From the NCBI GenBank assembly GCA_013286485.1, contig JABDFN010000004.1:1-46542 (forward strand): a stretch of DNA of 46,542 nucleotides, in the 5' to 3' direction. This document shows, in pieces, positions 6,954 through 22,960 of this stretch. Source of the DNA: Bacteroidota bacterium (lineage in GTDB: Bacteria > Bacteroidota > Bacteroidia > Chitinophagales > Chitinophagaceae). Position numbers and translations under genes: made by a program. The notes under the pieces are model-generated. The model had not been told where the DNA came from. It was given only the letters and a program-made list of their open reading frames with translations, and ran no database searches. Positions within the stretch are counted from its first letter, which is position 1. The number at the start of each line of letters is the position of its first letter.

Positions 6954-8999
6954 ATGTCAGTACATAGAAGAAGCCAGGGGTTGTTTGATCCTAAATTAGT
7001 GAGTGAGGCTATTGGCCAATCTTTCATCAAATTGAATCCGCGTATTTTGTTCCGCAACCCTGTAATGTTCACGGTTGAAATTGGAACAGTCATTATGCTT
7101 ATTGTGAGCCTATGGACACTGAGCGGCAATGCTCACCAGGGTTCTTTTGCATATAATCTGAGCATATTTCTAATACTGCTATTTACAGTTCTATTTGCAA
7201 ACTTTGCAGAAGCACTAGCTGAAGCAAGAGGTAAAGCACAGGCTGCTACATTACGTAAAACAAGGAAAGATACACCTGCCAAGAAAATAGTATTGATGGG
7301 AGAGATTTTTTTGAATGAAGTACATATAGTGCCTTCTTCGGAATTGAAAAAAGGTGATGTTTTTGTTTGTGAAGTAGATGATATCATTCCTTCAGATGGA
7401 GAAATTATAGAAGGAATAGCTACAATAGATGAATCAGCTATTACCGGTGAATCTGCTCCTGTTATTCGCGAAGCTGGTGGCGATAAATCATCAGTAACAG
7501 GAGGAACTAAGGTTTTGTCTGATAAAATAAAAGTGAAGGTAACAACAGATCCCGGAGAAAGTTTCCTGGATAAGATGATAGCATTGGTAGAAGGCGCCAG
7601 CAGGCAAAAAACGCCTAATGAAATAGCATTGACAATTTTGTTAGCAGCATTTACTATTGTATTTATAATAGTGTGTATAACGCTAAAACCATTTGGTGAT
7701 TATGCAAATACTCCCATAACAATAGCTGCATTTATTTCATTGTTTGTTTGCCTGATACCCACAACAATTGGCGGATTATTAAGCGCCATTGGCATAGCGG
7801 GTATGGATAGGGCATTAAGGGCGAATGTAATTGCAAAATAAGGTAAGGCGGTAGAAACAGCTGGCGATATCGATACACTATTGCTTGATAAGACCGGAAC
7901 CATTACAATAGGGAACAGAAAGGCTACACATTTTTATCCTGCAAAAGGAATTGATGAAAAACATTTTATCCAATGTGCAGTATTGAGCTCTATGGCAGAT
8001 GAAACTCCTGAAGGAAAATCTATTGTTGAATTAGGTGGCGTAAACCCATCTAATTACGAGGTAGAAAATCCGAAATTTATTAAGTTTACTGCAGAAACCC
8101 GTAGCAGTGGTATTGATTTTGGTACTACACACATTCGTAAGGGAGCTTATGATGCGATTAAAGCGATGGTTGAAAAAGTAGGGAATGAATTTCCAATAAC
8201 AACTACCAATGATGTAAATAAAATATCCATTAATGGCGGAACCCCGTTGGTTGTAATAGAGAATAATGTTGTTTTAGGTGCTATAGAATTACAGGATATT
8301 ATTAAGCCAGGAATACAGGAACGTTTTGAACGCCTTCGGAAGATGGGCGTAAAGACAGTAATGGTAACAGGTGATAACCCGCTTACGGCAAAATACATTG
8401 CAGAAAAGGCGGGTGTAGATGATTATATAGCAGAAGCAAGACCTGAAGATAAGCTGGAATATATACGTAAAGAACAGCGTACAGGCAAGCTGGTAGCAAT
8501 GATGGGTGATGGAACGAATGATGCACCTGCCTTAGCACAAGCAGATGTAGGGGTGGCAATGAATAGTGGCACACAGGCTGCTAAAGAAGCGGGCAATATG
8601 GTGGACCTGGATAATGACCCTACTAAATTGATTGAGATAGTAGAAATTGGCAAACAGTTATTAATGACTCGAGGGACTTTAACTACTTTTTCAATTGCAA
8701 ACGATGTAGCTAAATATTTTGCTATTGTGCCCGCATTATTTATTTTATCAATCCCTGCTTTGCAGGGTTTGAATATTATGAATTTGCATAGCCCTGAAAG
8801 CGCAATTTTATCTGCCGTAATTTTCAATGCTATTATTATACCACTGCTAATTCCATTGGCATTAAAAGGAGTAGCATACAGACCTATAGGCGCAAGTGCA
8901 TTATTGAGAAGAAACCTTTTTGTATATGGGGTTGGTGGTATTATCGTGCCGTTTATTGGAATAAAAATAATTGACCTCTTAGTAGGCCTGTTTATATAG
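6954..8999 (+). pseudogene. kdpB: kdpB, potassium-transporting ATPase ATP-binding subunit, interrupted by an in-frame TAA
   Basis: KdpB is the P-type ATPase subunit that hydrolyses ATP to drive uptake. The full frame would encode 681 residues, matching E. coli KdpB (682), but codon 296 (7839-7841) is TAA. Both sides are in the same frame and conserved: before it the A-domain motif TGES and the PTTIGGLL membrane motif, after it [21 protein letters not shown] and [12 protein letters not shown]. The stop sits where homologs read R-A-N-V-I-A-x-S-G-x-A-V-E, at the serine, so one C-to-A change in TCA would explain it. The second half has no ATG before the DKTG motif, only a TTG at 7881, so it is unlikely to be translated alone. 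A sequencing error, a recent null mutation, or readthrough are all possible. The rest of the gene shows no decay. Confidence 0.93.
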
Positions 9000-14892: not shown

Positions 14893-16137
14893 ATGAACAA
14901 GATATTTCAAATACTTATTGTAGCTATGATATTACAGGTACCTGCCAAAGCCCAATGGAAAATTATTGATACTATAGGTAATGCAAATTATTACAATATC
15001 CATTTCTGGGATTCACAAAATGGCATTATTGGTGGTGAGTTGAAAGGCAGGTTCCTTAAAACCAATAATGGCGGAGCAACCTGGGATACTATTATTTCAC
15101 CCATTGTAAAGGATCACGATCTTTTATCTTACATGCAGTTTGTAAATGATAAATGGGGTTTTGCATGTGGTGGTTCGGGTTTCACATCAGTAAAAACCAT
15201 GCTGATAGGTACTAAAGATGCAGGACTGACTTGGGACTCACTATCGTTCAATACACCCGGCGCTCTTGAATTCAGGAAACTTTATTTCAAGTATGATGAT
15301 GTGATAGGCATACAAGGCATTGTATTTGACTATTACGATGCAATGTTTATAACCTTTGACACAGGCAAAACACTTAGACGTATACCTATGCCAGATACTA
15401 ATTTTTCGATCTTTGATGCGATACTTGTTTCAAATAAAATCGTACTGACGGGAGGGAATCATGTAGGACCTACTAACAGTATATACACTTCAATTGATTT
15501 AGGCTATACCTGGAAGACTGTACTTACTGATTCAATTACAGCAAGTACATTAGGTACATGGAATAATTATGTTTTTGCAGCAGGTGAGTATGGCTATATA
15601 TTCAGATCAACAGATGGTGGTAACACATGGACCAAAAACAAAGCAATAGACAGTAGCGAGGCTATCAAAACAATAAAAATTTATCCCGATGGCAGAGTGT
15701 ATTTATTAGGTACATATCATTTATATGGTTCAGATAATTATGGCCTTACATGGCATAAGAGTTCCCAGGTTGACACCCCATTTAATGGTTTATGGGATGT
15801 TTCTATGCCATCGAAAGATACTGGTTATATTATTTCGAACAGGCGAATTTATAAAACAACTCTTGGGGGAGGAATGGCACTAAGCGTAGCTAATATTTTT
15901 CCGGTAAATGATGAGATAAAGGTATATCCAAATCCAACTAATAGGTTCATGCATATCGATGTTTTGAATGGTATTAAAGTGAAAGCAGTTACTATTTATG
16001 ATATGGCCGGAAGGGTTATTTATCAAATCAATTCGGGTTGGCAGCAGATTGATGTTTCAGGATTCACAAAAGGGGTTTATATAATTGAGATCAATACGGA
16101 TAAATATGTTTCTAAAAAGAAATTGCTGATACAATAA
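14893..16137 (+). CDS. Secreted BNR/YCF48-like repeat protein with T9SS sorting domain
   Basis: The 414-residue protein starts with a signal peptide ending near AKAQ (residue 20). The body has repeats of the form G-G-x-T-W (GGATWDT, GGNTWTK, YGLTWHK) typical of sialidase-type or YCF48-like beta-propellers. The C-terminal part, from about residue 340, is a type A type IX secretion sorting domain (VYPNPTNRFMHIDV ... GVYIIEINTDKYVSKKKLLIQ). It is therefore predicted to be exported across the outer membrane and anchored or released at the cell surface. Asp-box propellers often bind glycans or act as scaffolds; I see no catalytic signature. The T9SS machinery itself is not in this window. Confidence 0.9.
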   Translation: MNKIFQILIVAMILQVPAKAQWKIIDTIGNANYYNIHFWDSQNGIIGGELKGRFLKTNNGGATWDTIISPIVKDHDLLSYMQFVNDKWGFACGGSGFTSVKTMLIGTKDAGLTWDSLSFNTPGALEFRKLYFKYDDVIGIQGIVFDYYDAMFITFDTGKTLRRIPMPDTNFSIFDAILVSNKIVLTGGNHVGPTNSIYTSIDLGYTWKTVLTDSITASTLGTWNNYVFAAGEYGYIFRSTDGGNTWTKNKAIDSSEAIKTIKIYPDGRVYLLGTYHLYGSDNYGLTWHKSSQVDTPFNGLWDVSMPSKDTGYIISNRRIYKTTLGGGMALSVANIFPVNDEIKVYPNPTNRFMHIDVLNGIKVKAVTIYDMAGRVIYQINSGWQQIDVSGFTKGVYIIEINTDKYVSKKKLLIQ

Positions 16138-16332: not shown

Positions 16333-16890
16333 ATGCTAAAGGTATTATACTGTTTATTGTTTGGCTGTTTTCTGCTTGTTCCGGGCATAAATAGTGCACA
16401 AACCATAATATTTGAATTGTCGAGTAGCATAGTTAGCTTTCATTCAGCAGCACCAAATGAATTAGTAAGCGCCGCATCTGATAAAATGATGGGCATACTG
16501 GACAATAAGAATTTTTTTCTGTTCAAAGTAGATATACTCACTTTCAAAGGATTTAACAGCCCAGTTCAAAGAGAGCATTTTAATGAAAACTATATGGAGA
16601 CATCTTTATATACTCATGCTTCTTATTCTGGAAAGATCATTGAAGATGTTGATCTTGTGAAAGAGGGGGTGTATGATGTACGTGCAAAAGGTAAATTAGA
16701 TATACATGGTATAAAGCAAGAGCAGATCATAAAAGTGCATATTGTTTCTAAAAATGGGAAACTAGCAATAAAGTCGAACTTTAAAATATTATTAGCAGAT
16801 TATAATATAAAGATACCCAGAATAGTTTCGGACAAATTATCACCCGTAATAAATGTAAAGGTTGACTGTATAATGGTGCTCAAAAAATAA
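16333..16890 (+). CDS. YceI-family periplasmic protein, first copy
   Basis: The 185-residue protein has a signal peptide (to about residue 22, ending NSAQ) and the YceI lipocalin-like pattern: FHSAAP in the first strand, REHFNENYMETSLYTHASYSG in the middle and GKLDIHGIKQEQ near residue 120. YceI barrels bind isoprenoid-type lipids such as polyprenyl chains in the periplasm. A second copy lies at 21412, and the two share HFNE-YME and DYNIKIP stretches, so they are paralogs. It is followed 3 bases later by a large histidine kinase gene, which suggests co-expression. Ligand unknown. Confidence 0.88.
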   Translation: MLKVLYCLLFGCFLLVPGINSAQTIIFELSSSIVSFHSAAPNELVSAASDKMMGILDNKNFFLFKVDILTFKGFNSPVQREHFNENYMETSLYTHASYSGKIIEDVDLVKEGVYDVRAKGKLDIHGIKQEQIIKVHIVSKNGKLAIKSNFKILLADYNIKIPRIVSDKLSPVINVKVDCIMVLKK

Positions 16891-16893
16891 AAC

Positions 16894-19740
16894 ATGTGCA
16901 AATTATTTTTTTTCCTGTTGTTCTGTTCACCTTTAGCGGAGGCGCAGCAACCATTTGTACATGAATACTGGCTGAACGAATATAATACACCTGTTAAAGT
17001 AAATGCAATTATACAGGATATAACAGGATATATTTTTGTAGGAACAGATGCTGGGGTATATAGGTTTAATGGTAGAAGTTTTGTTTTATTATCGGATAGC
17101 ATTTGCAAACCTGTTACAGCTTTGGTTGAGAACAATGGTAAGGTATACGTTGGGTACTCCAATGGTATTATTGCAGAAGTCGATAATGACAGTGTACATA
17201 GGCTTAGAATATATGGTTATGTGCCGGCGACTCCTGTACATAGTATATTAATAGATGGAGATGTTTTATTTGCTACAACAGAAGAAGGGATATTCAGCTT
17301 GTTTCAAAACAGAAGTATATTACTTAATTCGGAAAATGGCATGTCTGATGATTTTGCGTATTGTGTTTACAAGAGGTCAACTAAGCAACTGCTTGTGGGA
17401 ACAGACAAAGGTATCAATTGCCTTTCCCTGGTTAATAATAAACTGCATATTGATATTATAAACTCATCTACCGTAGCCGGCATGGTTGACAATATAGTCA
17501 CAGTTATAGGCCGTGGAAATTTTGCAAACGATTTTTGGATAGGGACACAAAATGGTGGAGTAATGAAAGTAGTGATAAGCAAGAAGAATAAAATATCTGC
17601 AATTTCGGCTATAAAAAATTGGGAGTGGGGACAGGTGAATGACATTCTTCCATATGCTGAAAACAAGGCTTGGGTTGCTACAGAAGACGGGTATATACTG
17701 AATATAGATTTATCAAATAAAACATTACCTGCACAGCCATATTACTTAGGTAAAAGCATAAAAAAAATATTATTGGGCAAAACAGGAAATATATGGTGTG
17801 CTACAACAGATGGGTTGACCATGTTAACTACTCAGTTCCTTACATATATACCACTATTTAAGAATTATTCACTCGGAACTCTTACTAGTATGACTTGTGA
17901 TAAGGAAAATAACCTTTGGTATGCCCAACGTAATAAGTTGTATAAAATGCCATTGAAAGGCATTAATGAACAATCGGAAATTATTTATTCGGCAGCATCA
18001 GATATAACTTCATTATATGCAGATACATTATCAGGGATATGGATAGGTACTATAGATAATGGGTTATGGTATTGGAAAGACAATAAGACTGAACATGTTG
18101 AAAATATACCACGAATTGAAAAAACAAGCATACTAAGTATTGCAGGTAATAAGGATAATATATGGATATCGAGTTTGAATGGTGTAGAGCAAACAAAATT
18201 AATAGCTCCCGGCAAGCTTCAATTGATACAACATCATAGTAAACGATCAGGTGTAGGCAGTGATTATATTTACCAGTTGCATATTGATCGTTTTGGTGAA
18301 GTATGGATGGCTACTGATGGTGCCGGCATTTGTATGTATGATACTGTCTATCATCATTGGGATTCTTCAAATGGCATACAAAGCAAAGTGATATATAGTA
18401 TAACAGAAGATGTTGATACTAACATTTGGATAGGCACGCTTGACAAAGGACTGTATTTTTTTGATGGTAAAAGCTCCTGGATATCTACTCATAAAAAGGC
18501 AGGAACACCTTTAATAAATATTTCTACCCTTGCAGCAAATAATACGGGACAAGTTATTGTTGTGCACCAAAAAGGTATTGATGAATGGTATCCTTTATCT
18601 CATGAATTTAGACACTTTGGAAAGAGGTTCTTAATGCCGATTGATAGTGTTTCTACAGTACTTAATTGTTTTGCAAAAGACACGGCTGGGAATGTATACA
18701 TTCCTTTCAATCTTGGGTTTATGGTATTTAAAAATCAGGATAGTAGGTATGACATAAGTCCAACAGTTTGTATACGTTCAGTAAGTGTATTTCTGCAACA
18801 AATACCGGAAATGCAACATTCTTTTTCTTACAACCAAAATAATATTACCATAGCATACGATGGCATTAATTATACCAGCACAGATCCCGTTCACTATCGT
18901 TATTTATTAGAAGGTTATAATAATAAATGGACATATACAGATGATGAATTGGTTACTTTTCCCCAACTGTCTCCTGGAAAATATACCTTTAATTTAGAGT
19001 CATCACTCAATAAGAACTATTTTAAATCCAGTCGTATTTCATACAGTTTTGTTATTACAATGCCTTTTTGGAAGAGTATTTGGTTTTTATTGTTAGTAGC
19101 TATTGTTATCATTGTACTTGTCATCACTTATATTCGATTGAGGGAAAGACAATTAAAAAAAATATCACAACTCCAGAAAGAACGCATGTTGTATGAATAC
19201 GAACATTTGAAGACACAGGTCAATCCACACTTTCTTTTTAACAGTTTGAATACGCTGGCAAGTCTCATTGAAGAGGATAGAGACGCGGCAATTGATTATA
19301 CTACGCAGTTGTCAGATTTATACAGGCATATGCTAGCATATAGAGAGAGGGACTTGGTATTGCTTGCTGAAGAATGGGAGATATTGCTCGGATATATGTA
19401 TATACAGCAAAGCCGCTTCGGGAAGGCACTCCATATGCAGGCAAATATACCTGCAGATATTTTACGTACTAAGAAAATAGTACCATTATCTTTGCAAATA
19501 GTAGTTGAAAATGCTATTAAGCACAATATAGTAAGTGCGTCTGTGCCATTAACTATATATATAAGTGCAGATGAAAATGAAATAGTAATAAAAAACCACT
19601 TACAACCTAAGATAAGTAAAGAAAGGTCTTCAGGGCTTGGGTTGGAAAATATTAAAAAGCGATACAGATTGCTTTCCAGAAAGGATGTAACTTATGGGAT
19701 TAAGAATAACGATTTCATTATAACATTACCACTATTATGA
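16894..19740 (+). CDS. Two-component-regulator-propeller histidine kinase (LytS/His_kinase type)
   Basis: This 948-residue membrane sensor begins with a signal peptide (ending AEAQ). Two-component-regulator-propeller repeats follow across residues 20-620, seen as repeated I-W-x-G/A-T elements (DFWIGTQNGG, GNIWCATTDGL, SGIWIGTIDNG, NIWIGTLDKG). A Y_Y_Y domain lies at about 655-720 (YRYLLEGYNNKW), a membrane helix at about 728-748 and a coiled linker after it. The kinase domain has His779 in QVNPHFLFNSL and a C-terminal ATPase lobe (VENAIKHN, GLGLENIKKRY). It overlaps the LytTR regulator by four bases (ATGA), so the pair is coupled. Unlike SusR-type hybrids, the regulator is a separate protein. 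Confidence 0.94.
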   Translation: MCKLFFFLLFCSPLAEAQQPFVHEYWLNEYNTPVKVNAIIQDITGYIFVGTDAGVYRFNGRSFVLLSDSICKPVTALVENNGKVYVGYSNGIIAEVDNDSVHRLRIYGYVPATPVHSILIDGDVLFATTEEGIFSLFQNRSILLNSENGMSDDFAYCVYKRSTKQLLVGTDKGINCLSLVNNKLHIDIINSSTVAGMVDNIVTVIGRGNFANDFWIGTQNGGVMKVVISKKNKISAISAIKNWEWGQVNDILPYAENKAWVATEDGYILNIDLSNKTLPAQPYYLGKSIKKILLGKTGNIWCATTDGLTMLTTQFLTYIPLFKNYSLGTLTSMTCDKENNLWYAQRNKLYKMPLKGINEQSEIIYSAASDITSLYADTLSGIWIGTIDNGLWYWKDNKTEHVENIPRIEKTSILSIAGNKDNIWISSLNGVEQTKLIAPGKLQLIQHHSKRSGVGSDYIYQLHIDRFGEVWMATDGAGICMYDTVYHHWDSSNGIQSKVIYSITEDVDTNIWIGTLDKGLYFFDGKSSWISTHKKAGTPLINISTLAANNTGQVIVVHQKGIDEWYPLSHEFRHFGKRFLMPIDSVSTVLNCFAKDTAGNVYIPFNLGFMVFKNQDSRYDISPTVCIRSVSVFLQQIPEMQHSFSYNQNNITIAYDGINYTSTDPVHYRYLLEGYNNKWTYTDDELVTFPQLSPGKYTFNLESSLNKNYFKSSRISYSFVITMPFWKSIWFLLLVAIVIIVLVITYIRLRERQLKKISQLQKERMLYEYEHLKTQVNPHFLFNSLNTLASLIEEDRDAAIDYTTQLSDLYRHMLAYRERDLVLLAEEWEILLGYMYIQQSRFGKALHMQANIPADILRTKKIVPLSLQIVVENAIKHNIVSASVPLTIYISADENEIVIKNHLQPKISKERSSGLGLENIKKRYRLLSRKDVTYGIKNNDFIITLPLL

Positions 19741-20486
19741 GAATAGTAATTATAGAAGACGAAAAACCGGCGTATAACAGGTTATCTAAAATGATAAAGG
19801 AACTGATACCTGATTGCAAAGAAGTCGCACATATGGATAGTGTTGAAGCTTCAAAAAAATGGTTTGAGAATAATGAAATGCCAGATGTCGTTTTGTTAGA
19901 TATACAATTAGCTGATGGTACCGGTTTTGATCTGTTAAAACAGTCTCATATCAATTGTCCCATTATTTTCACAACCGCTTATGACCAATATGCACTGGAG
20001 GCTTTTAAAACAACCGGAATAGAGTATTTATTGAAACCTGTAAAAAAAGATGAATTGGATGCGGCATTTAAAAAGATAGATAAAATAAAAAACTTTTTAA
20101 CAGAGGATGAAAAATTGGTTCCACTTATTCCGCAGGTTAGAGAGTACAAAAAAAGGTTTATTATACGTTTCGGGGAACATATAAAAACATTACAAGCTGA
20201 AGATGTAGCATATTTTTACAGCGAGAATAAAGCAACCTTTGCCCGTACCTTCGAGAATAAGAACTATCCTATGGATTATAATCTTGACGCATTAGAAGGG
20301 GTTCTTAACCCGCAGGATTTCTTTAGAATAAATCGTCAATATCTTATTAATCTTCAGTCCATTGAGGATATGAAAACATATAGCAAAGCCCGTGTAATTG
20401 TAAATCTAAAACCCCCAGTAAAAGAACTACCGGTAGTGAGTTCGGAACGGTCTGCCGATTTCAAACAATGGTTAGGGGGAGATTAA
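19737..20486 (+). CDS. LytTR-family response regulator
   Basis: The 249-residue regulator has a receiver domain (about 1-120) with E7/D8 and phospho-acceptor D55 in VVLLDIQLADG, plus LLKPVKKDEL near the end of the domain. The LytTR DNA-binding domain (about 145-245) shows FIIRFGEHIKTLQAEDVAYFYSE and FFRINRQYLINLQSIEDM, which are typical. Its start overlaps the kinase stop, so phosphotransfer from H779 of the upstream kinase is the obvious pairing. The likely targets are the neighbouring YceI, OB-fold, haem-like and DUF5777 genes, which is inference from position. Confidence 0.95.
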   Translation: MRIVIIEDEKPAYNRLSKMIKELIPDCKEVAHMDSVEASKKWFENNEMPDVVLLDIQLADGTGFDLLKQSHINCPIIFTTAYDQYALEAFKTTGIEYLLKPVKKDELDAAFKKIDKIKNFLTEDEKLVPLIPQVREYKKRFIIRFGEHIKTLQAEDVAYFYSENKATFARTFENKNYPMDYNLDALEGVLNPQDFFRINRQYLINLQSIEDMKTYSKARVIVNLKPPVKELPVVSSERSADFKQWLGGD

Positions 20487-20571
20487 TTTTAAAATAATGA
20501 CAAATTTGTAATTTCAGTATCTTATTTTCCCGATTCGTCTTTTATATAATGTAAAGGTTTATATGCTTCGG

Positions 20572-20579
20572 TATTTTTG
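20572..20579 (+). promoter_or_regulatory. Candidate Bacteroidota -7 element before the OB-fold gene
   Basis: TATTTTTG fits TAnnTTTG and lies 22 bases before the ATG at 20602. No convincing -33 box was seen. If used, 20602-22960 would be a separate transcript from the kinase/regulator pair. Confidence 0.4.
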
Positions 20580-20601
20580 AAATTGGTAAATACGGGGTTT
20601 T

Positions 20602-21006
20602 ATGATTAAAAAGCTCTTATTGTTTATTATTATAGTAGCTGCCGTTGGTGGGACTGTGGCAATTTATCTATGGAATAAACCTCACAAAAAAGTAGAGGAT
20701 ACATCAGCTATACCTATTACTGCAAATGCTCTTTGCAAGGCATTTAGCGATAATAAAACGAATGCTGGTACGTTATATTTAAATAAAGCACTTGAAGTGA
20801 CTGGTGAAGTAATGGATGTAAATACAAACCAGGATGGTGGTAAAATGATACTCCTTAAAACCGGCGATCCTATTTTGGCTATACAATGCACTTGCCGTGA
20901 AAGAAATATTAATGTAGGAAAAGGTAAAATTGTAACGATCAAAGGGTTTTATTCAGATTTTAGCGATATTACAGGTGTATTATTAACAGATTGTGTATTG
21001 AAATAA
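20602..21006 (+). CDS. Membrane-anchored OB-fold protein (tRNA_anti-like)
   Basis: The 134-residue protein has an N-terminal membrane helix (about residues 5-25; LLLFIIIVAAVGGTVAIYLW) and then a small beta-rich domain. That domain (ALCKAFSDNKTNAGTLYLNKALEVTGEV and GKIVTIKGFYSDF) looks like the tRNA_anti-like OB-fold of Bacteroidota envelope proteins. The outward-facing domain probably sits in the periplasm and has a C-x-C pair (CTC, near residue 96). OB-folds bind ligands from metals to nucleic acids; the ligand here is unknown. It lies 15 bases before the haem-like lipoprotein gene and is likely in the same operon. Confidence 0.72.
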   Translation: MIKKLLLFIIIVAAVGGTVAIYLWNKPHKKVEDTSAIPITANALCKAFSDNKTNAGTLYLNKALEVTGEVMDVNTNQDGGKMILLKTGDPILAIQCTCRERNINVGKGKIVTIKGFYSDFSDITGVLLTDCVLK

Positions 21007-21021
21007 AAATAATTAATAGTA

Positions 21022-21399
21022 ATGATGAAATATTTATTCGCCCTGTCATTTTTAATGTTTGGCTTACAGGCATGTTACAATGATAAAGCAGACCAACTGT
21101 ATGGTGTAAAAGCGTCTACAAGCTGTGATACCAGTTCGGTTACTTATTCCAGTACCATTAAAACGATTATGGATCAAAACTGTAGCATTTCTGGTTGCCA
21201 CGATGCAACAACACAGGCAAATGGGTATAATTTTAGTACCTATTCCGGTTTAGCAACTTCTATACAACTCAACAGGTTGTTAGGGGCGATAACCCAGCAA
21301 AATGGGTATTTTGCAATGCCGCAAAGTGGTGGTAAATTGGCAAGCTGTGATATTGAAAAAATTACCGCTTGGGTGCATAGTGGATATCCAAATAATTAA
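21022..21399 (+). CDS. Lipoprotein with CX4CH cytochrome-c-like motif
   Basis: The 125-residue protein has a lipoprotein signal (lipobox GLQAC, lipidated Cys18), then a short linker and a compact domain. It contains C54-S-I-S-G-C59-H60, a CX4CH variant of the haem-binding CXXCH motif, preceded by IKTIMDQN. Further on is FAMPQSGGKLASCDIEKITAWVHSG, where Met99 would be a plausible distal haem ligand as in class I cytochromes c. Cys35 and Cys109 could form a disulfide. Haem attachment at a CX4CH site is uncommon, so function as an electron carrier is uncertain. It sits between the OB-fold and second YceI genes. Confidence 0.75.
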   Translation: MMKYLFALSFLMFGLQACYNDKADQLYGVKASTSCDTSSVTYSSTIKTIMDQNCSISGCHDATTQANGYNFSTYSGLATSIQLNRLLGAITQQNGYFAMPQSGGKLASCDIEKITAWVHSGYPNN

Positions 21400-21420
21400 A
21401 TCTTAATAATAATGAAGGTC

Positions 21421-21969
21421 ATGAAAAAAAATGTCATTATAACAGTATTGTTAACTTGTTGTATCTCCGTTGCTTTTGGGCAAAAATACCTGACACGTAC
21501 AGGACAAATAACTTTCTTTTCAAGCACACCACTGGAGAATATAGAAGCTCGTAATAATGAGGTAGCGGCTATTGTATCGCAGCAGGGAGACATTGTTTTT
21601 CAGGCTCCTATAAAGAGCTTTAAGTTTCAAAAAGAACTGATGCAGGAGCATTTTAATGAAGAATACATGGAAAGTGATAAATATCCTAAGGCGGATTTTA
21701 AGGGTAAGATTGATAATTTATCAAGTGTTAATTTCTCCAAAGACGGTAATTACAATGTAAAAGTAACTGGGAAATTAACAATCCATGGTGTTACAAAAGA
21801 TGTATCAGAACCAGGTACTATAATTATAAAAGGGAATGATATAACTGTAAACTCAAAATTCAGCGTAGCTACTGTGGATTATAACATTAAGATACCAGCT
21901 TTAATGGCTGGGAAAATTGCTAAGAGTATTGAAGTGACTGTAAATTGCATATTGTCCGCCGTAAAATAA
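21421..21969 (+). CDS. YceI-family periplasmic protein, second copy
   Basis: The product is a YceI barrel of about 182 residues. I chose the ATG at 21421, because it gives a compact signal peptide (MKKNVIITVLLTCCISVAFGQ); an in-frame ATG three codons upstream (21412) is also possible. Family marks are ITFFSSTPLENIEARN, MQEHFNEEYMESDKYPKADFKG and GKLTIHGVTKDV. It resembles the copy at 16333 but is closer to the typical family pattern. Its location between a haem-like lipoprotein and a DUF5777 barrel suggests a lipid- or quinone-related role in the periplasm, which is inference. Confidence 0.92.
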   Translation: MKKNVIITVLLTCCISVAFGQKYLTRTGQITFFSSTPLENIEARNNEVAAIVSQQGDIVFQAPIKSFKFQKELMQEHFNEEYMESDKYPKADFKGKIDNLSSVNFSKDGNYNVKVTGKLTIHGVTKDVSEPGTIIIKGNDITVNSKFSVATVDYNIKIPALMAGKIAKSIEVTVNCILSAVK

Positions 21970-21997
21970 TTCCTCACGTTTAGATACATTTTATACA

Positions 21998-22960
21998 ATG
22001 CGTATCAATTTACATGTAATTCTGATGACCTTAATGCTATCTGCAGGCAGCCAGCAGGTATTTGCACAATCTGATACATCTGATAATGACCTGGAAAGAA
22101 TGCTGGATGCAGACAAGAGCGCAACTAAGAAAAGCCAATTTGTATCTGCAACATTTAAAAGCACTCATATTGTAAATGGTCAAAGCATTGAAAATGTTGG
22201 CAAAGGTGTACTCGATTTCAGGATACTGCATCGTTTTGGCACACTCAACACCGGCTCGGAGAATTTCTTCGGCCTTGATAATGCAATTACTAAGCTCGCA
22301 CTTGATTATGGAATTACAAATTGGTTGATGGTAGGTGTTGGGCGTAGTACATTCGATAAAGAGTTTGATTTTTTTACAAAGATCAAGCTGGCGCGCCAAA
22401 AAGAACATAAGGCCATGTCGTTTAGTGTAAGTTATGTTGGGGGTTTGTATATACAATCATTACCTGCTTCTACCTTTCATTTGGATACAGGACAAACCTA
22501 TTACTTCAGCAATAGGGTTTGTTATATGAATCAGCTGCTTATTGCACATAAGTTTAGTAATGCTTTTTCAATGCAAATAATGCCTACTCATATTCATTAT
22601 AACCTCGTAGACAGCAGTAAGAATCCAAACGACCTGTTTGCCTTGGGCGTTGGTGGACGTTTAAAGCTATCAAATCGTATTGCACTGACGGGAGAATACT
22701 ACTATACCCTCAACCCTTTCTCTGAAGCCAATGACTTGCCTGTACACAATGCCTTATCTTTTGGTGTTGATATTGAGACCGGGGGGCATGTTTTTCAACT
22801 TATTTTTACTAATTCCACCGCAATTACTGAACGCGCTGTAATAGGGCAAACCAATGGTGATTGGGGTAGCGGAGATATACATTTTGGTTTTAATATATCC
22901 CGCGTTTTTACTATTGTTCAACCTAAAGAATTCAAAAATTCGAGGAATAAGATCTGGTAA
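21998..22960 (+). CDS. DUF5777-family outer-membrane beta-barrel protein
   Basis: The 320-residue protein has a signal peptide (ending VFAQ, about residue 24) and a barrel-like, aromatic-rich body. The segment VLDFRILHRFGTLNTGSENFFGLDNA, seen near residues 70-95, and the following GITNWLMVGVGRSTF are characteristic of the DUF5777 family of Bacteroidota. It lies 28 bases after the second YceI gene and ends the operon; a terminator follows about 60 bases later. The function is not known. Its co-location with YceI and a haem-like lipoprotein suggests a conserved envelope module. Confidence 0.85.
   Translation: MRINLHVILMTLMLSAGSQQVFAQSDTSDNDLERMLDADKSATKKSQFVSATFKSTHIVNGQSIENVGKGVLDFRILHRFGTLNTGSENFFGLDNAITKLALDYGITNWLMVGVGRSTFDKEFDFFTKIKLARQKEHKAMSFSVSYVGGLYIQSLPASTFHLDTGQTYYFSNRVCYMNQLLIAHKFSNAFSMQIMPTHIHYNLVDSSKNPNDLFALGVGGRLKLSNRIALTGEYYYTLNPFSEANDLPVHNALSFGVDIETGGHVFQLIFTNSTAITERAVIGQTNGDWGSGDIHFGFNISRVFTIVQPKEFKNSRNKIW

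Follow-up and report, generated by a model that had tools for sequence, protein, structure and literature searches.

In this study, positions 16333-22960 of the window (the whole 46,542-nucleotide stretch of DNA that was analysed, contig C4 of a 1.93-Mb MAG with 60% completeness) were investigated, and seven open reading frames, all on the + strand, were recognized there from the ORF list and Pfam. With reference to the DUF5777 protein, the closest named relatives of the host are Chitinophagaceae, such as Flavipsychrobacter. The genes and regulatory features of the locus are as follows.

16333..16890, +: YceI_S, a secreted YceI of the kinase type (Pfam YceI 26.9 bits, cut-off 23.7)
16894..19740, +: sensor kinase with Reg_prop propeller, Y_Y_Y, one membrane segment and His_kinase (Pfam domains; membrane segment identified by eye)
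19737..20486, +: response regulator with LytTR DNA-binding domain (Pfam Response_reg 55.8 bits, LytTR 65.5 bits)
20512..20541, +: LytTR operator (predicted) with the half-sites TTTCAG and ATTCGT spaced by 21 bp (weight-matrix score)
20572..20579, +: TATTTTTG, Bacteroidota-type -7 promoter box (TAnnTTTG), 30 nt downstream of the operator
20602..21006, +: OB-fold (tRNA_anti-like) protein, membrane-anchored at the N-terminus, two Cys invariant (Pfam 56.4 bits; anchor identified by eye)
21022..21399, +: monohaem c-type cytochrome lipoprotein, CX4CH (assigned from invariant residues, profile and fold match)
21412..21969, +: YceI_E, the effector YceI lipocalin, secreted (Pfam YceI 60.1 bits, cut-off 23.7)
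21998..22960, +: DUF5777 (PF19089) outer-membrane barrel, 12 predicted strands (Pfam 309.4 bits, cut-off 23.1)

The original prediction had described seven same-strand genes with a YceI protein at both ends. All seven genes were recovered, including two YceI that both exceed the curated YceI (PF04264) cut-off, but the second YceI is the sixth gene and DUF5777 is the last. In the sensor half the intergenic gaps are 4 and -3, the kinase and regulator genes overlapping, while in the effector half they are 116 ahead of the OB gene and then 16, 13 and 29. The sole larger gap is the regulator-to-OB interval, and it contains both the operator and the promoter box. The His_kinase and Response_reg-LytTR genes, as identified with Pfam, are adjacent to each other and make up a two-component pair.

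Elsewhere in the window, the kdpB gene of a kdp operon (6954-8999) is interrupted by an in-frame TAA near 7839-7841, its fragments matching E1-E2 ATPase and HAD hydrolase; the split may be a real loss or a MAG error. A secreted BNR/Ycf48-like protein with a type IX sorting tail is encoded at 14893-16137, directly upstream of YceI_S. A similar secreted protein was noticed after the sensor cassette in another genome (G009, L228), preceded by an operator-like site, and the protein at 14893-16137 may belong to the regulon of the module.

Conservation of the gene set

For the neighbourhood survey, the DUF5777 gene was used as the anchor and profiles were built from the window proteins. DUF5777 was detected in 173 of the 198 genomes sampled from the order and in 115 of the 296 sampled from the phylum. 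Among the 80 DUF5777 loci of the order survey (L035-L114), the same-strand partners within 3 kb of DUF5777 were a relative of the cytochrome in 75, a YceI in 63 (a count given with the same-strand radius of 3 kb, and elsewhere with 1.5 kb) and the OB protein in 52; 22 loci from named genomes partly duplicate the other loci. When the same profiles were run on 60 random 16.7-kb stretches of the same genomes, the cytochrome was found in 1, YceI in 1 and the OB protein in 0. The kinase and regulator profiles matched in 4 and 12 of these 60 stretches, respectively, and as both families are common, their presence alone means little. The neighbouring housekeeping genes (recR-, UvrD-, methionine-tRNA ligase-, ribosomal and SecY-like, all named by eye) were set aside, as they differ by lineage.

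Outside the order, 20 loci (one per family) were considered, and the cytochrome was observed in 17 and YceI in 18 of them, usually in the order cytochrome-YceI-DUF5777 as read from the gene strings. This recurrence in other lineages shows that the cytochrome-YceI-DUF5777 core is old and phylum-wide. The original prediction held that these genes belong together and would be undermined by families occurring independently in most genomes; the survey upholds it, as the families are not independently distributed around DUF5777 and the core recurs in other lineages.

The composition is not uniform within the order. By the same 3-kb, same-strand measure, 17 of the 80 loci lack YceI and 28 lack the OB protein. 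The absence of YceI from 17 loci indicates that a lipid carrier nearby is not always required. DUF5777 is accompanied most constantly by the cytochrome, which is retained where YceI is absent.

A proposed sensor lipocalin and a predicted operator

The two YceI proteins of the window belong to different types. Among 100 YceI proteins placed in a tree, the 13 that adjoin a kinase form, with one other member, a clade with a support of 0.995, and the kinase-type YceI share an invariant GFN stretch. A profile built from the 13 kinase-adjacent proteins gave 254 bits to YceI_S and 155 to YceI_E. The sequences thus indicate that YceI_S is not a recent copy of the DUF5777-adjacent YceI. With this profile, kinase-type YceI (at least 188 bits) were found in 21 of the 68 DUF5777 genomes examined, the remaining YceI scoring at most 189 bits, so that one of each type meets at the edge and was placed by its gene neighbours. 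The sensor YceI being present in only about a third of the DUF5777 genomes, the effector core is distributed more widely than its two-component control.

The linkage of this protein to the kinase is tight. YceI_S lies directly upstream of the kinase in the window and in 12 other loci, and the kinase and regulator follow it directly in all six genomes fetched separately, giving 19 of the 21 genomes in total. For the other two, the coordinates in G140 are consistent with the same YceI_S-kinase-regulator order, while in G002 no kinase was recognized between YceI_S and the regulator. The sensor genes of L041, L055 and L071 were linked to the module beyond the edge of the stretch first fetched. On account of this tight linkage, YceI_S is best read as the ligand-binding partner of the kinase. 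A comparable arrangement is described for VtrA/VtrC, where a lipocalin-like gene lies directly beside, and often overlaps, a membrane sensor gene, and VtrC binds bile acid for VtrA (PMC9214523). In VtrA/VtrC the DNA-binding regulator is a membrane protein of the ToxR type, whereas a propeller-kinase two-component system and a YceI are found here.

Ahead of the effector genes, in loci with the sensor cassette, a direct repeat of the LytTR type was observed: RTTCAG is followed 21 bp on by RTTCRG, and a T-run and CC come in front of this second half-site. A weight matrix was made from nine seed sites first chosen by eye in sensor-cassette loci; the seed loci are not evidence by themselves, and leave-one-out scores and non-seed counts were used. 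The window site (20512-20541) scored 27.9 bits as one of the nine seeds and 21.4 bits when left out, the next best position in the window reaching 14.6. Allowing at most three mismatches, the pattern matched once in the window, against 0.07 expected.

Sites of at least 14 bits were found in 8 of 92 non-seed effector promoters (those remaining without the nine seed loci, without L123, which shares a contig with L114, and without stretches shorter than 60 bases), against 5 of 819 control promoters, those of other genes of the same stretches (p 7e-6). Counted by genome, with the best site before any module gene of the locus rather than the first gene only, and with leave-one-out scores for the seeds, such a site was present in 15 of 21 genomes with YceI_S and in 2 of 47 without it (p 1e-8). 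Among non-seed genomes the figures are 9 of 12 and 2 of 47 (p 9e-7); the per-genome comparison covers genomes other than G011 and G047 (loci L038 and L043), and the Fisher values overstate independence, as related genomes share ancestry. The exceptions are the two of 47 genomes that have an operator-like site but no YceI_S, and the three of 12 non-seed genomes that have YceI_S but no site.

The site also stands at a fixed distance from a promoter box. Over 18 sites, the best match to TAnnTTTG, which we take to be a promoter element of Bacteroidota, fell at 30-31 nt after the site, where 11 of the 18 agree at 5 or 6 of 6 positions; the mean agreement has its maximum there, at 3.9, and is about 1.8 elsewhere. 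The spacing of TTCA/TTCG pairs peaked at 21 in control promoters as well, and a free enumeration of 9-mers returned A/T-rich words only.

Published LytTR sites consist of two direct repeats of 9-11 nt with a spacer of 11-13 nt beside a promoter (PMC4847170; PMC6193735). The repeats in the window, of about 9 nt with a 12-nt spacer at the target promoter, have this geometry and resemble the operators of the YpdB, AgrA and LRS systems (PMC4847170; PMC6193735). The RTTCAG...RTTCRG repeat is particular to the module and, unlike known LytTR operators, there is no auto-regulatory site before the sensor genes of the window. Auto-regulation of the sensor genes was considered and rejected, with only one of 13 YceI_S upstream stretches reaching 14 bits (L040, a divergent promoter common to the effectors). 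A pattern search of the MAG for a wider regulon gave four places against three for the reversed control, and so no sign of one.

Taken as a predicted binding site, the repeat indicates that the effector genes carry a conserved LytTR-type operator which tracks the kinase-linked YceI. The original prediction had proposed that the module is under its own two-component control and had named a lack of regulation by the LytTR protein as what would speak against it; on the evidence of the sequences, with the operator distribution in non-seed genomes and the fixed distance to the -7 box, the proposal is supported.

The effector proteins

No Pfam match was obtained for the lipoprotein encoded by the fifth gene, which the original prediction had called cytochrome-like. 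In 20 aligned relatives, the lipobox Cys18, C54, C59, H60, M99 (in Met-Pro) and W117 are invariant, and the haem site of two Cys and a His together with a distal Met, as in class I c-type cytochromes, is present in 20 of 20 rows. Searched against solved structures, a profile of these rows matched cytochrome c6 at E 1.6e-5 and PccH of Geobacter at E 3.9e-5. PccH, a cytochrome of electrode biofilms, was also the best fold match of the cytochrome model (Z 6.9 over 81 residues); Foldseek returned PccH only, at E 0.9, so the fold match is weak by itself.

The canonical spacing CXXCH, which is usual but not strictly defining, is not that of the window protein, which has CX4CH. The spacer between the haem Cys, read from the alignment of 20 rows, is 2 in 11, 4 in six, 5 in two and 6 in one, and among 141 profile matches there were 63 with a single CX2CH, 28 with a single CX4CH and 42 with CX4CH followed by CX2CH. 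The occurrence of CXXCH in orthologues from the same operon shows that the haem-site spacing is not fixed in this family. As CX4CH and CX2CH occupy the same place in homologous domains, the window lipoprotein can be assigned by homology as a c-type cytochrome with predicted haem attachment, and cytochrome c assembly proteins are encoded in the MAG. Orthologous cytochromes with a wide haem-Cys spacing, unusual for c-type sites, were observed at L117:6960-7346 (6 residues), L116:5968-6351 (5) and L120:6956-7351 (5).

A model of the DUF5777 protein made from 22 sequences has 12 strands and a mean pLDDT of 74.7. It matches the barrels FapF, KdgM, NanC, OmpG and OMPLA, with FadL-type channels also among the matches, and no sequence relative of DUF5777 was found among solved structures. 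The modelled fold is that of an outer-membrane barrel; the matches are generic 12- to 14-strand barrels and carry no information on cargo or function. In the OB protein, C96 and C131 are invariant in 17 aligned rows, and the N-terminal segment, read by eye, is predicted to anchor it in the inner membrane. The predicted places of the other parts are the periplasm for the two YceI, as soluble proteins, a lipoprotein for the cytochrome and the outer membrane for the barrel.

Proposed function and alternative explanations

From these data, we conclude that 16333-22960 is a dedicated, regulated envelope module. We propose, with a probability of roughly 45%, that it is a redox system of Bacteroidota and a counterpart of the BcnA/LcoA lipocalin-cytochrome system, in which the ligand, the direction of electron flow and the job are those that we infer. 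The parts supported directly are the gene association, the identity of the cytochrome, the dedicated sensor YceI and the operator. The original prediction, which had hinted at a periplasmic quinone or redox-linked process, is supported in part, quinone binding by the YceI proteins and electron transfer between these and the cytochrome being putative. YceI_S, as a periplasmic lipocalin, would sit with the propeller of the kinase and read out the state of its ligand, a lipid or a quinone; phosphorylation of the LytTR regulator by the kinase would follow, and binding of this regulator to the two half-sites 21 bp apart, upstream of the -7 box, would switch on the OB-cytochrome-YceI_E-DUF5777 genes. 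YceI_E may ferry an isoprenoid, probably menaquinol, through the periplasm and swap electrons with the cytochrome lipoprotein, while at the outer membrane the 12-strand DUF5777 barrel may hold or vent the system, for which the OB protein may serve as the inner-membrane partner. The module would most likely serve to reduce lipids or quinones of the envelope that have become oxidised (peroxidised), its c-type cytochrome taking the position that cytochrome b561 has in BcnA/LcoA.

This lipocalin-cytochrome redox reading draws on BcnA/LcoA, on a fusion protein of Cellvibrio and on a second YceI-cytochrome pair in the MAG. In Burkholderia, the YceI BcnA and the cytochrome b561 LcoA give protection from lipid peroxyl radicals, and isoprenoids or ubiquinone-8 are bound in YceI structures (PMC9113575). 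There, as here, a YceI lipocalin gene is linked to a haem-protein gene, and a role in envelope redox is shown by mutants (PMC9113575). Unlike in BcnA/LcoA, the haem partner in the module is a c-type lipoprotein, and a DUF5777 barrel, an OB protein and a kinase/LytTR pair are added; no cytochrome b561 match was obtained among the window proteins scanned, and the MAG (60% complete) gave 0 matches. In Cbp2D of Cellvibrio, a YceI-like X158 and a c-type cytochrome X183 stand side by side in one protein, which carries a cellulose-binding module and is LPMO-linked, whereas the module here consists of separate envelope proteins and a barrel (PMC12542752). The second pair in the MAG lies at L001:1317-2262, where a metallophosphoesterase gene is followed by a classical YceI gene that overlaps the gene of a dihaem cytochrome, a relative of reaction-centre cytochrome c. 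A peroxiredoxin gene neighbours the module in 9 of 103 loci.

Various explanations compete with this proposal. Porin-cytochrome conduits, such as MtrAB and the fused Cyc2, also have an outer-membrane barrel encoded beside a c-type cytochrome, and the module may carry periplasmic electrons over the outer membrane to redox proteins secreted to the cell surface, the cytochrome acting as the relay and DUF5777 as the component in the outer membrane. Type IX-tailed redox proteins (Reeler with CX4CH, DOMON and giant plastocyanin-like proteins) adjoin the module in various lineages, operators also precede a giant cupredoxin gene (L223) and a cupredoxin gene (L227), and PccH is among the best cytochrome matches. 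Known conduits, however, have a multihaem cytochrome in or beside a large barrel, whereas the cytochromes here have one or two haems and the window protein has one haem motif; a barrel of 12 strands leaves little room for a haem domain, the genes are separate and have YceI and OB partners, and the window has no such surface redox protein, only the secreted BNR-repeat protein upstream. We regard electron export as unlikely. The handling of periplasmic copper or of its oxidative damage, with the kinase sensing it, appears more doubtful still: several loci have CusB-type adaptors (one of them containing a heavy-metal binding domain) and an RND pump immediately upstream, and in three genomes the sensor cassette is followed by giant cupredoxins, but of 103 loci only 11 have HlyD/CusB-like neighbours and eight have RND pumps, most loci, including the window, having none, and inspection by eye of the YceI_E, OB and DUF5777 alignments revealed no conserved Met/His metal motif.

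Lipid transport or outer-membrane maintenance, with the cytochrome merely reporting the redox state, would agree with the lipid-binding fold of YceI and with the phospholipase OMPLA and FadL-type channels among the DUF5777 matches. It predicts the reverse of what was observed, the cytochrome being the most constant partner and persisting without YceI, and is improbable in our view. That the locus is a chance cluster of common envelope genes is hardly credible: all the families are widespread, with YceI in 196 of the 198 genomes of the order, but the random-stretch control, the recurrence outside the order, the YceI_S clade and the distribution of the operator contradict it, and chance clustering was rejected.

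Returning to the redox system of lipocalin and cytochrome, the metal-efflux and cupredoxin genes added in other lineages fit a different job than lipid or quinone reduction, and the loci without a YceI nearby likewise speak against it. A more far-reaching possibility, which we put forward with considerable doubt, is a categorically new system of Bacteroidota: a trans-envelope electron path of lipocalin-borne quinone or lipid, a cytochrome with a spacer of 2-6 residues and the DUF5777 barrel, with the second lipocalin as a ligand-reading subunit of the kinase, into which the lineages plug different surface redox proteins. If this were true, one kind of protein would both carry a redox lipid and report on it.

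In the open PMC literature, with subscription journals outside the scope, no paper naming DUF5777 and no description of a YceI-cytochrome-DUF5777 module was found. DUF5777, a family that has had no function, becomes open to experiment through its ties with the cytochrome, the lipocalin and a defined operator. The operator provides a reporter, the sensor lipocalin points to a ligand to seek, and the effector genes form a short operon; if the sensor reads a lipid or quinone, this would be direct envelope redox sensing for Bacteroidota. In Riemerella anatipestifer, the YceI gene B739_2003 is listed as raised under iron limitation (PMC5429918).

The neighbours of the module vary among lineages. 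Giant secreted proteins of 2224-3168 aa lie between the sensor cassette and the effector genes in L223, L224 and L225, and the one scanned (2351 aa) harbors plastocyanin-like and PKD domains. Reeler proteins with a haem-like motif adjoin peroxiredoxin, and DOMON proteins adjoin ankyrin proteins. In five loci of genomes without a sensor YceI (L053, L060, L064, L084 and L094), a sigma factor-like gene and then a membrane protein gene are found directly upstream of OB-cytochrome-YceI-DUF5777, and the two are perhaps an alternative control of the module. In Flavobacteriaceae and related lineages (L124, L126-L133 and L135), the genes are arranged as OB-DUF5777-cytochrome-YceI, and in several of these loci ankyrin and DOMON genes come before them.
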